Shown here piece after piece: positions 43,072 to 59,350 of a stretch of DNA of 64,000 bases. The notes under the pieces were generated by a model, which did not search any database, had not been told where the DNA came from, and was given only the letters and a program-made list of their open reading frames with translations. The stretch comes from Fimbriimonas ginsengisoli Gsoil 348. GTDB lineage: Bacteria; Armatimonadota; Fimbriimonadia; Fimbriimonadales; Fimbriimonadaceae. The position numbers were made by a program, and so were the translations under genes. How positions within the stretch are numbered: the stretch's first letter is position 1; each line of letters opens with the position of its first letter. The stretch is from assembly GCF_000724625.1 (NCBI RefSeq), contig NZ_CP007139.1:1984001-2048000 (forward strand), in the 5' to 3' direction.

Positions 43072-43186
43072 GTAGCATCGGCTCCCAGCCGATGAACCTG
43101 TCACGACCCTCCTGGTCGTGCGATCCGCCAAGGGCAAGATGCCCTTGGGACCCACTGGCTGGAAGCCAGTGCCACGTGATGCTACG
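43072..43186. repeat. REP-B hairpin cluster 2
   Basis: Hairpins in inverse order to cluster 1: ATCGGCTCCCAGCCGAT, CACGACCCTCCTGGTCGTG, AAGGGCAAGATGCCCTT, ACTGGCTGGAAGCCAGT. The whole cluster starts GTAGCAT and ends ATGCTAC, so it can also pair end to end. It separates the binding-protein gene from coaD. Confidence 0.8.
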
Positions 43187-56882: not shown

Positions 56883-57431
56883 ATGGCGCGCGGCACTCTC
56901 GTCATCTTAAGCGGCCCGAGCGGGGTCGGCAAGGACACGGTTATCAATGCGTGGCACGCTCGCGATCCGCGGGTGGAGCGGGTAGTCGCCTACACGACGC
57001 GCCCACCTCGGGCCGGCGAATTGCCGGGTATCGACTACCATTTCGTGACCGTTCAGGAATTTCTTCGGCTTGCCGAAGCGGGCGCGTTTTTGGAATTCAA
57101 AGAGGTCCACGGCAACCATTACGCAACCCCCCTGCACGATATGGAAGAGATGCTCGCTGCGGGCAAGATCGCCGTTCTCAAGATCGACGTCCAAGGTGCG
57201 TTGGCGGTGATGGAGCTGCGGTCCGACGCCGTCTCGGTATTCCTCATGCCTCCCAGCGCCGACGAGCTCGAGCGCCGCATCCGCGCCCGCAATCTCGACG
57301 GCCCCGACGTCATCTACCGCCGCCTCCTCAACGCCCGCGAAGAAATGGCCCTCGCCCACCACTACCAGCTCCAACTCATCAACGACTCCGTCGAGGAGGT
57401 CGTCGGTCGGTTGGTCGGTGTAGTGCAATAG
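56883..57431 (+). CDS. gmk: Guanylate kinase
   Basis: Phosphorylates GMP to GDP. 182 residues, slightly short. P-loop VILSGPSGVGKDTVI (about residues 7-21), VAYTTRPPRAGELPGIDYHFVT is the GMP-binding block, FLEFKEVHGNHYATPLHDMEEMLAAGKIAVLKIDVQGALAV follows, and IRARNLDGPDVIYRRLLNAREEMALAHHYQLQLINDS is the lid and C-terminal end. The next gene in many bacteria is rpoZ then coaBC; here a RAYT gene occupies that position before coaBC. Confidence 0.95.
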   Translation: MARGTLVILSGPSGVGKDTVINAWHARDPRVERVVAYTTRPPRAGELPGIDYHFVTVQEFLRLAEAGAFLEFKEVHGNHYATPLHDMEEMLAAGKIAVLKIDVQGALAVMELRSDAVSVFLMPPSADELERRIRARNLDGPDVIYRRLLNAREEMALAHHYQLQLINDSVEEVVGRLVGVVQ

Positions 57432-57432
57432 C

Positions 57433-57460
57433 GTGGCGCCGGCTTCCAGCCGGTAGCCCA
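57433..57460. repeat. Left 28-bp inverted repeat of the RAYT2 unit (REP-B type)
   Basis: Exactly complementary to 58132-58159 over 28 bp. It contains CCGGCTTCCAGCCGG, the same core as the dispersed REP-B hairpins, and begins 2 nt after the gmk stop. Confidence 0.9.
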
Positions 57461-57482
57461 GGTTTCAAGTAACCTCCAGGCC

Positions 57483-58178
57483 GTGGATAAGCCGAAGATC
57501 CCCCTGTTGGAGCCGAGCGCAATTTCCAGACGTCAGAGGCGACTGCCTCACTGGGAAGCCGATAATGCCATCTACTTCGTAACGTTTCGCCTGGCTGACT
57601 CGCTGCCGGAGAGCGCAGTTGAGGCATATCGGCTTGCAAAGGAAGACCTTCTGCGGCGCAAAAAACGCGCTCCACAAGAAGAACAACGGGAGATCAGCCT
57701 GGGTCTATGGCGTCTTTACGAGACGCGAATCAGCGAACTTCTCGACAGCGGACGAGGGGAGTGCCTTTTGGCCAACTCAACTGCCGCAATGGTCGTTCGT
57801 GGCGCATTGCAGCACTTCGATTGGGAAAGATACGATCTGTATGCTTACGCGATCATGCCGAATCATGTCCATACCGTCGTCGGATTGACAACCGTCGGGT
57901 CCCTGGAGAGAGTACTCCACTCTTGGAAATCTTTTTCTTCGAATCAGATTAACCGCGTACTGGGACGTAGCGGGCCCCTTTGGCAGCAGGAATCGTTCGA
58001 TCACCTTATACGCAGCGAAGCTGACTTCGATCGTTGCGTGAAGTACACCTTGGAGAACCCTGACAAAGCTGGACTGCATGACTGGCCTTGGGTCTGGTCG
58101 GCCTTTTCAGGACCATCGGTCGACCATGGGTTGGGCTACCGGCTGGAAGCCGGCGCCACGGGTGGGGGCGTGCAATGA
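57483..58178 (+). CDS. REP-associated tyrosine transposase RAYT2
   Basis: 231 residues. IS200-like Y1/HuH domain: His128 and His130 in AIMPNHVHTVVGL, likely catalytic Tyr188 in VKYTLENPDKAGL; SGPLWQQESFDHLIRSEADFDR is the RAYT-type block before it. The N-terminal HWEADNAIYFVTFRLADSLPESAV is also usual for this larger subgroup. The last residues (GLGYRLEAGATGGGVQ) are encoded by the right inverted repeat, and the stop overlaps coaBC by ATGA. GTG start with TAACCT 7 nt upstream. Intact. Confidence 0.92.
   Translation: MDKPKIPLLEPSAISRRQRRLPHWEADNAIYFVTFRLADSLPESAVEAYRLAKEDLLRRKKRAPQEEQREISLGLWRLYETRISELLDSGRGECLLANSTAAMVVRGALQHFDWERYDLYAYAIMPNHVHTVVGLTTVGSLERVLHSWKSFSSNQINRVLGRSGPLWQQESFDHLIRSEADFDRCVKYTLENPDKAGLHDWPWVWSAFSGPSVDHGLGYRLEAGATGGGVQ
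58132..58159. repeat. Right 28-bp inverted repeat of the RAYT2 unit (REP-B type)
   Basis: Perfect inverse of 57433-57460. It lies inside the last codons of the RAYT2 gene and 15 nt before the coaBC start. Confidence 0.9.
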
Positions 58179-59350
58179 ACATCGTCCTCGGAGTTTCCGG
58201 CTCGGTCGCGGCGTATCGGGCGGCGGATTTGGCTCGGGAGTTGATGCGGGCGGGGCACAGCGTTCGCGTGTGCCTTACCGACTCCGCTCAGAAGTTTGTG
58301 ACCGCCGCGCTCTTTGAAGCCCTGACGGGACAGGCGTGTCTGCAGGACACGTTCGAGGAGCCGGATCGAGGGCGGATGGCGCATATCGATTGGGCGCGGC
58401 AGGCGGATATCGTCGTGGTGGCGCCGGCGACCGCGAACACGATCGCCAAAATCGCCCATGGCATCGGTGACGATATGCTGACGACGTTGGTGCTAGCCAC
58501 CACCGCCCCACTGGTTGTGGCCCCGGCGATGAACCCGCAGATGTACGCCTCCGAGGCCACGCGCGAGGCGATGACAAAGCTTCGTGAGCGAGCAACCTGG
58601 GTTGTGGAACCGACGGACGGCGACGTCGCCTGCGGCGAACATGGGCAAGGAAAGCTCGCGGCAATTTCCCAGATCGTCGAGGCGGTCCAGACCGTGGCAC
58701 GAAGATCCAAGCAACTTGAGGGACGAAAGGTGCTTATAACGAGCGGCCCTACCCAGGAGCCAATCGACGACGTACGGTTCGTCAGCAATCGGAGCAGCGG
58801 CAAAATGGGTGCCGCGCTTGCTCGCGCGGCGCTCCTCATGGGGGCGGAGGTTACCGTGGTGTCGGGGCCGGCGCGGGCCGCGCTTCCGCTTCAGGCGAAC
58901 ATTGTCCATGTCCGCACGGCGCAGGAGATGTTGGAGGCTGGCTTGGCCCACTGCGCGGACGCGAACCTTATCATCGGGGCGGCGGCGGTTGCCGACTACC
59001 GGCCCGCGGTCAGGCATCGGGGAAAGATTCGTCGCAGCGCGGAGCCGACGACGCTCGAGCTGCACCCAAACCCCGATATCATCGCGGAGATTGCGAAAGC
59101 GGCGCCCGATGCGATCACCGTAGGCTTCGCCGCCGAGCCGAGCCGTTCGCTCGATGCGGCGAGAGACAAGCTCGCGCGAAAGGGGCTCTACGCGATCGCC
59201 GCTAACGACGTGAGTCGGGACGGCATCGGATTCGATGCCGATCAGAATTCGCTCCGGCTCATCACGCTCGATAGCCCGGTTGTCTTCGACAGTGGCCTGA
59301 TGAGCAAACTCGGCTGCGCGCTCTGGCTGTTGGATCGGGTCGCGAAATGA
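58175..59350 (+). CDS. coaBC: Bifunctional phosphopantothenoylcysteine decarboxylase/synthase
   Basis: Coenzyme A synthesis: joins 4'-phosphopantothenate with Cys (CoaB) and decarboxylates (CoaC). 391 residues. The flavoprotein CoaC half has GVSGSVAAYRAADLARELMRAG, HIDWARQADIVVVAPATANTIAKIAHGIGDDMLTTLVLA, PAMNPQMY and the Cys loop EPTDGDVACGEHGQGKL; the CoaB half starts LEGRKVLITSGPTQEPIDDVRFVSNRSSGKMGAALARAA and includes IGAAAVADYRPA and AANDVSRDGIGFDADQN. The start at 58175 is set by the ATGA overlap with RAYT2. Normally this gene follows gmk-rpoZ. Confidence 0.94.
   Translation: MNIVLGVSGSVAAYRAADLARELMRAGHSVRVCLTDSAQKFVTAALFEALTGQACLQDTFEEPDRGRMAHIDWARQADIVVVAPATANTIAKIAHGIGDDMLTTLVLATTAPLVVAPAMNPQMYASEATREAMTKLRERATWVVEPTDGDVACGEHGQGKLAAISQIVEAVQTVARRSKQLEGRKVLITSGPTQEPIDDVRFVSNRSSGKMGAALARAALLMGAEVTVVSGPARAALPLQANIVHVRTAQEMLEAGLAHCADANLIIGAAAVADYRPAVRHRGKIRRSAEPTTLELHPNPDIIAEIAKAAPDAITVGFAAEPSRSLDAARDKLARKGLYAIAANDVSRDGIGFDADQNSLRLITLDSPVVFDSGLMSKLGCALWLLDRVAK

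Follow-up and report, generated by a model that had tools for sequence, protein, structure and literature searches.

We conclude with considerable confidence that a REPtron, that is, one RAYT gene (encoding a predicted HUH/Tyr single-strand DNA endonuclease) together with two inverted, outward-tagged REPs of its own, inserted into the start/stop overlap between the genes gmk and coaBC of Fimbriimonas ginsengisoli Gsoil 348, and that its RAYT is probably now read before coaBC. The locus lies in the window that we analysed, a stretch of 64,000 nucleotides (1,984,001–2,048,000) of the one-contig genome of 5,231,762 bases, in which there is a single full copy of the unit. Its features, in window coordinates, are:

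56883–57431, + strand: gmk, guanylate kinase of 182 aa (TIGR03263, E 1.3e-56), single copy in the genome
57423–57429, + strand: left copy of the 7-nt direct repeat GTGCAAT at the insertion flank, from heptamer occurrences in the window
57429–57431, + strand: gmk stop codon TAG, aligned with the TGA found in relatives
57432–57460, + strand: left REP, GTGG tag (57433–57436) followed by a bulged hairpin, read as RGAGFQPVA in gmk's frame
57483–58178, + strand: RAYT (REP-associated tyrosine transposase) coding sequence, GTG start, 231 aa
57864–57872, + strand: HVH (HuH) metal-binding motif, residues 128–130, invariant in alignments A1 and A2 and aligned to 4er8
58044–58046, + strand: codon of the catalytic tyrosine, Y188, invariant in alignments A1 and A2
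58132–58160, − strand: right REP, an inverted copy with its GTGG tag at 58159–58156 on the − strand, read on the + strand as GLGYRLEAGAT of the RAYT
58170–58176, + strand: right copy of GTGCAAT
58175–58178, + strand: ATGA overlap of the coaBC start ATG (58175) and the RAYT stop TGA; in relatives gmk and coaBC are joined here directly
58175–59350, + strand: coaBC, 391 aa (TIGR00521, E 2.4e-122), single copy

A preliminary description of this DNA had noted a transposase gene between identical 28-bp inverted repeats, starting 2 nt after gmk and overlapping coaBC by ATGA. As an observation it was confirmed as a whole, with corrections, and its interpretation was partly supported. The overlap is present, as the coaBC ATG lies across the TGA of the RAYT; the repeats are perfect but 29 nt long, and the unit begins 0–1 nt, not 2 nt, after gmk. 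The GTG start codon of the RAYT is 51 nt past the gmk stop, with no clear Shine-Dalgarno sequence upstream.

The transposase had also been said to retain its HuH and Tyr residues, and the homologue alignments bear this out: H128/H130 and Y188 are conserved, and across 53 aligned homologues HVH and Tyr do not vary. Y1_Tnp was the sole domain reported by a Pfam scan of the protein, and the NCBIfam model REP_Tyr_transpos matches it with an E value of 8.9e-21 and 74.3 bits, below the model's 80-bit cut-off. Among PDB entries only TnpArep 4er8 matches it in sequence, and the same structure, E. coli TnpArep on a REP hairpin, is the best fold match of the AF2 model (mean pLDDT 83.8). The right REP does encode the C-terminus of the RAYT, as had been proposed, and this REP-encoded tail (residues 211–231) is probably disordered, judging from its low-confidence prediction in the AF2 model. 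The bulged stem and the closeness to E. coli TnpArep are only suggestive of a placement in RAYT group 2.

The claim that the RAYT is bracketed by cognate REPs was upheld as well, because the arms belong to a family dispersed across the genome. The two arms are 671 nt apart and 100% complementary, each folds into a hairpin with a bulged stem (single-stranded DNA folding, z about −2.6 to −3.0), and both outer ends of the unit carry a GTGG tag, which conforms to the GTAG/GTRG pattern. In the 5.23 Mb genome the core of the unit's REP has 18 exact, five one-mismatch and 10 two-mismatch copies (23 with at most one mismatch and 33 with at most two), and with up to three mismatches there were 76+89 hits versus 17+16 for a reversed control. 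Many copies occur in outward-tagged (GTGG) pairs 44–113 nt apart, like the unit's own ends, and many sit directly 3′ of stop codons, for example as TAACC or TAGCC followed immediately by GTGG. REPs are generally reported just 3′ of stop codons (PMC3733652), and the unit in the window is likewise post-stop, with TAGC preceding GTGG.

The REP class that is abundant in the window (CTGGC/CGGGC...TGCCAC) is not that of the unit but a sister class, with 73 exact copies versus none in the control; the unit's REP has the GTGGC tag and the GGCTTCCAGCC centre in common with it and a stem of its own. The sister class flanks another RAYT of the genome, at 2,235,668, and four of its copies (GTGGCAC-N-GGCTTCCAGCC) lie in the window, at 43175 (−), 52199 (+), 54046 (+) and 61003 (−). 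The base 5′ of GTGG is C in 14/21 copies of the unit family and 34/54 of the sister family, and CC before GTGG is enriched in both (9/21, p 1e-4, and 12/54, p 0.008, respectively). Since a change of the TnpAREP guide from GTAG to GTGG shifts cleavage to CC (PMC8266576), this preference, seen in the copies themselves, would fit a working guide-cleavage relation.

The comparison of the gmk–coaBC interval among relatives revealed the empty site. In 13 relatives (L023, L024, L026, L027, L033, L034, L035, L038, L043, L046, L047, L048 and L050) gmk and coaBC share exactly the four nucleotides ATGA or GTGA, a gap of −4, and in nine further relatives the distance is about −10 to +95 nt; neither a RAYT nor rpoZ was found in the interval in any of these 13 and nine. 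In six relatives gmk was not found beside coaBC. The gap in the window is 743 nt as opposed to −4, which corresponds to 747 added nucleotides, or 3 × 249, and the direct overlap in relatives therefore points to an insertion of 747 nt into the start/stop overlap, carried by one genome only among those examined. It had been proposed that the RAYT now couples two essential genes translationally. The overlap with coaBC stands, but any coupling would not have been created by the RAYT, as the overlap predates it; by entering this older ATGA overlap, the RAYT took the place of gmk as the upstream partner. Truncation of gmk can be ruled out, because its 182-aa product ends at the ancestral stop position. 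In another genome of the same genus (G017; L025, 985–1500) we observed an unrelated insert of 497 nt, non-coding and repeat-rich, at the gmk–coaBC junction, so the site tolerates insertions.

The insert is stop-free over all 249 codons in gmk's frame, versus four and 10 stops in the other two frames, and the gmk TAG is the only stop between gmk and REP-RAYT-REP. In this frame the right REP contributes GYRLEAGAT, and the RAYT terminates at the TGA that was part of the old ATGA overlap. The unit thus contains no stop anywhere in the host frame and has REP peptides on both sides, like the units inside genes described below, but the TAG at 57429–57431 separates the host coding sequence from the RAYT, whereas no stop does so in those units. 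It is a REPtron, an element of a known kind, in a boundary version of the in-gene pattern.

The heptamer GTGCAAT occurs in the 64-kb window only at 57423 and 58170, at both flanks of the unit, where about four occurrences would be expected by composition. It looks like a target duplication, of the last codons of gmk. Target duplications are not a known product of Y1/IS200-type transposition (PMC2817692), and no flanking direct repeat was found at the other REP pairs and in-gene units examined. We rejected target-site duplication as a rule because such a repeat flanks the unit in the window alone.

Where do the relatives of this RAYT reside? The paralogue at 2,235,668 lies in frame and free of stops inside a zinc alcohol dehydrogenase gene of the same F. 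ginsengisoli genome:

C1:2235095–2236771 (L140/L193), outside the window: alcohol dehydrogenase-RAYT open reading frame, 561 aa, with ADH_N before and ADH_zinc_N after the RAYT

The same alcohol dehydrogenase is uninterrupted in relatives, and this RAYT unit is bounded by GTGGC... and ...GCCAC, with the abundant REP class at both borders. Similarly, three Fimbriimonadaceae genomes (G025, G023 and G020; loci L133, L139/L163 and L152/L165) have a RAYT in frame within the N-terminal half of carB, of which each of them possesses no other copy. The insert adds 187–245 residues in the linker before the oligomerisation domain, a linker that in relatives shows 0–6 residues, with one exception of 62. 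The exception (L167, in G011) has no visible RAYT, and its insertion may be a relic or an element of another kind. The chimaeras and the uninterrupted CarB proteins have a large set of invariant CarB residues in common. In the G020 copy the RAYT Tyr has been lost and the CarB frame is intact. In the structural model of a CarB-RAYT chimaera the CarB half was badly predicted (mean pLDDT 56).

A homologue search of named genomes gave 80 loci (L213–L292), many of them in long open frames and some of them ending at contig ends, so that one half of the host is visible. Hosts recognized by Pfam were ValS, LeuS, AlaS, IspG (GcpE), MetH, Sua5, a FabA-like dehydratase, Eco57I-type methylases, helicases and GH38, among others, and the in-gene RAYTs were found in Planctomycetota, Verrucomicrobiota, Acidobacteriota, Chloroflexota, Bacteroidota and Pseudomonadota. 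Grouping by host gives an in-gene share of about 47/80 loci, a figure shifted upward by the abundance of in-gene members in the query alignment. The in-gene RAYTs are flanked on both sides by peptides that the REPs encode (xGFQPV/GVPPA and xDARAT-like), their ends at the DNA level are GTRG-tagged inverted hairpins, and an exact PNHVH plus Tyr is present in 100 of 111 RAYT domains.

Two other causes of such frames were considered and rejected. Spurious long open frames in GC-rich DNA do not account for the loci with Pfam host domains on both sides, which include some of 46–50% GC. Many in-gene examples come from metagenome assemblies; assembly chimaeras are rejected as a general cause, however, as the alcohol dehydrogenase case is in a one-contig genome and the CarB and ValS cases recur in separate genomes. 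In a tree the ValS, IspG and FabZ-type members were clustered, which suggests long vertical residence, whereas the CarB and MetH members were scattered, and their branching suggests repeated independent entry. The joint alignment A3 was left out, its RAYT rows being apparently misplaced.

A question arising from the read-through frame is “Did the unit first enter the 3′ end of gmk itself?” A Gmk-RAYT fusion, later separated by a newly gained TAG, would account for the RAYT being in gmk's frame, the only one in which the insert is free of stops, for REP phases that yield GFQPV and RLEAGAT as they do in the in-gene units, and for the partial duplication of the gmk 3′ end, with VQ* on both sides. 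Yet the TAG is exactly at the ancestral stop, which is the simplest outcome if the unit landed within the stop codon or directly behind it; agreement in frame alone is a one-in-three chance, and a fused allele was not found. We regard such a history as unlikely, though it deserves to be kept in mind. Could the RAYT instead be a domesticated gene of the operon that controls coaBC or gmk through its product or through hairpins in the mRNA, without any spread of REPs? Its coupled position in the operon would suit such a role, as would the REP hairpins at both borders of the gene, which can be functional at the mRNA level (as for REPs downstream of genes, PMC3733652). That relatives with the same operon lack the RAYT, which is present in this genome only, and that cognate REPs occur genome-wide both speak against it, and we consider it improbable.

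An ordinary IS200/IS605 insertion sequence, here by chance, would explain the Y1_Tnp domain and the terminal repeats. Such an element would be expected in multiple near-identical copies and without REP-type ends, whereas we found one full copy, no tnpB in the unit, ends that are REPs dispersed without a transposase, and a fold nearest to TnpArep, all of which make this a very remote prospect. Even less can be said for the idea that the RAYT substitutes for a lost rpoZ. In some other bacteria rpoZ sits between gmk and coaBC, and the preliminary description, which saw no rpoZ, had placed the RAYT in its position. We located rpoZ elsewhere, as one copy at 5,129,840; it is present in 39/40 relatives, and the gmk–coaBC interval of the relatives examined does not contain it, so that this idea is refuted.

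Under the explanation that we favor, insertion of a REPtron into the ancestral gmk–coaBC overlap, the unit would have entered where REPs normally lie, directly behind a stop codon, and would have spared gmk. The overlap with coaBC was kept because the frame of the RAYT crosses the right REP and stops at the old TGA, and with both the gmk stop and the coaBC overlap preserved, the RAYT is probably expressed as the middle gene of the operon, with coaBC probably re-initiated after it instead of after gmk. The RAYT is probably active, cutting and rejoining folded single-stranded REP DNA and thereby spreading solo and paired REPs of its own family; the scattered REPs and REP pairs would then be its products.

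The architecture of the unit (GFQPV on the left, RLEAGAT on the right, open in gmk's frame) is that of its in-gene homologues. Because both REPs and the transposase are free of stops, a unit of this type could sit in frame inside an essential gene or in the overlap between two. In-frame, read-through units would be tolerated in essential genes, and mutations that truncate them would be selected against via the host gene; the unit in the window would be under a weaker hold, as a stop in its RAYT would only uncouple coaBC. We think it somewhat better than an even chance that the RAYT units of this clade are frame-neutral passengers in and between essential genes, the transposase being made as a domain of a host enzyme such as valyl-tRNA synthetase or carbamoyl-phosphate synthase. 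To our knowledge, the mobility of a whole RAYT has never been seen directly. If truncation of the transposase harmed the host gene as well, this would account for the persistence of RAYTs whose active sites are intact, even though transposition of the whole unit is rare.

How do these units compare with known systems? Inverted flanking REPs are the defining trait of RAYTs (Nunvar 2010, PMC2817692), and the described REPtrons/RAYTs (TnpAREP; PMC2817692; Quentin 2018, PMC6006769; PMC8266576) resemble the window unit in having a Y1 HUH gene, two inverted GTRG-tagged REPs, dispersed copies and a single full copy. They are, however, treated as separate genes with a stop of their own, whereas in the unit of the window the reading frame crosses the 3′ REP and ends in a start/stop overlap between two essential genes, and close homologues of its RAYT are embedded in frame in host genes. 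REPINs (Bertels and Rainey 2011, PMC3116915) are paired inverted REPs like those found here 44–113 nt apart, and the RAYT unit has the same ends, but they carry no RAYT gene. Short REPs inside genes are known from ‘REP-decorated’ proteins (PMC3733652); these intragenic REPs and the Rickettsia palindromic elements (Ogata et al., cited there) are likewise in-frame, translated palindromic repeats, but they are short and non-autonomous, whereas here a whole transposase gene travels with the REPs. Inteins and IStrons also reside recurrently in conserved essential genes and leave the host gene usable. The in-gene RAYT inserts differ from them in that no splicing domain or intron was seen and the insert stays in the predicted host protein, and the insert in the window differs in being bounded by stops.

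The open-licence literature that we searched gave no account of a whole REPtron lying in frame within an essential gene. Although this is no proof, such units seem to be undescribed. A 2018 survey dropped such long RAYT proteins as ‘gene fusions or annotation errors’, and pipelines and surveys that discard them as errors have removed evidence. To the question of how RAYTs persist over long times with intact catalytic sites, in a manner that is housekeeping-like rather than transposon-like, residence in the frames of essential genes (ValS, LeuS, AlaS, IspG, CarB, FabA-like and MetH) offers a simple, testable answer, namely that truncation of the passenger harms the host gene. Consequently, some essential enzymes of Planctomycetota, Verrucomicrobiota and Armatimonadota may bear a DNA-cutting domain.

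The closest paralogue in the tree from the same genome is at C1:1982593–1983162 (L160), just left of the window. It is a stand-alone gene whose REP pair is of a different type, tagged GTAG, and its stop codon precedes its 3′ REP.
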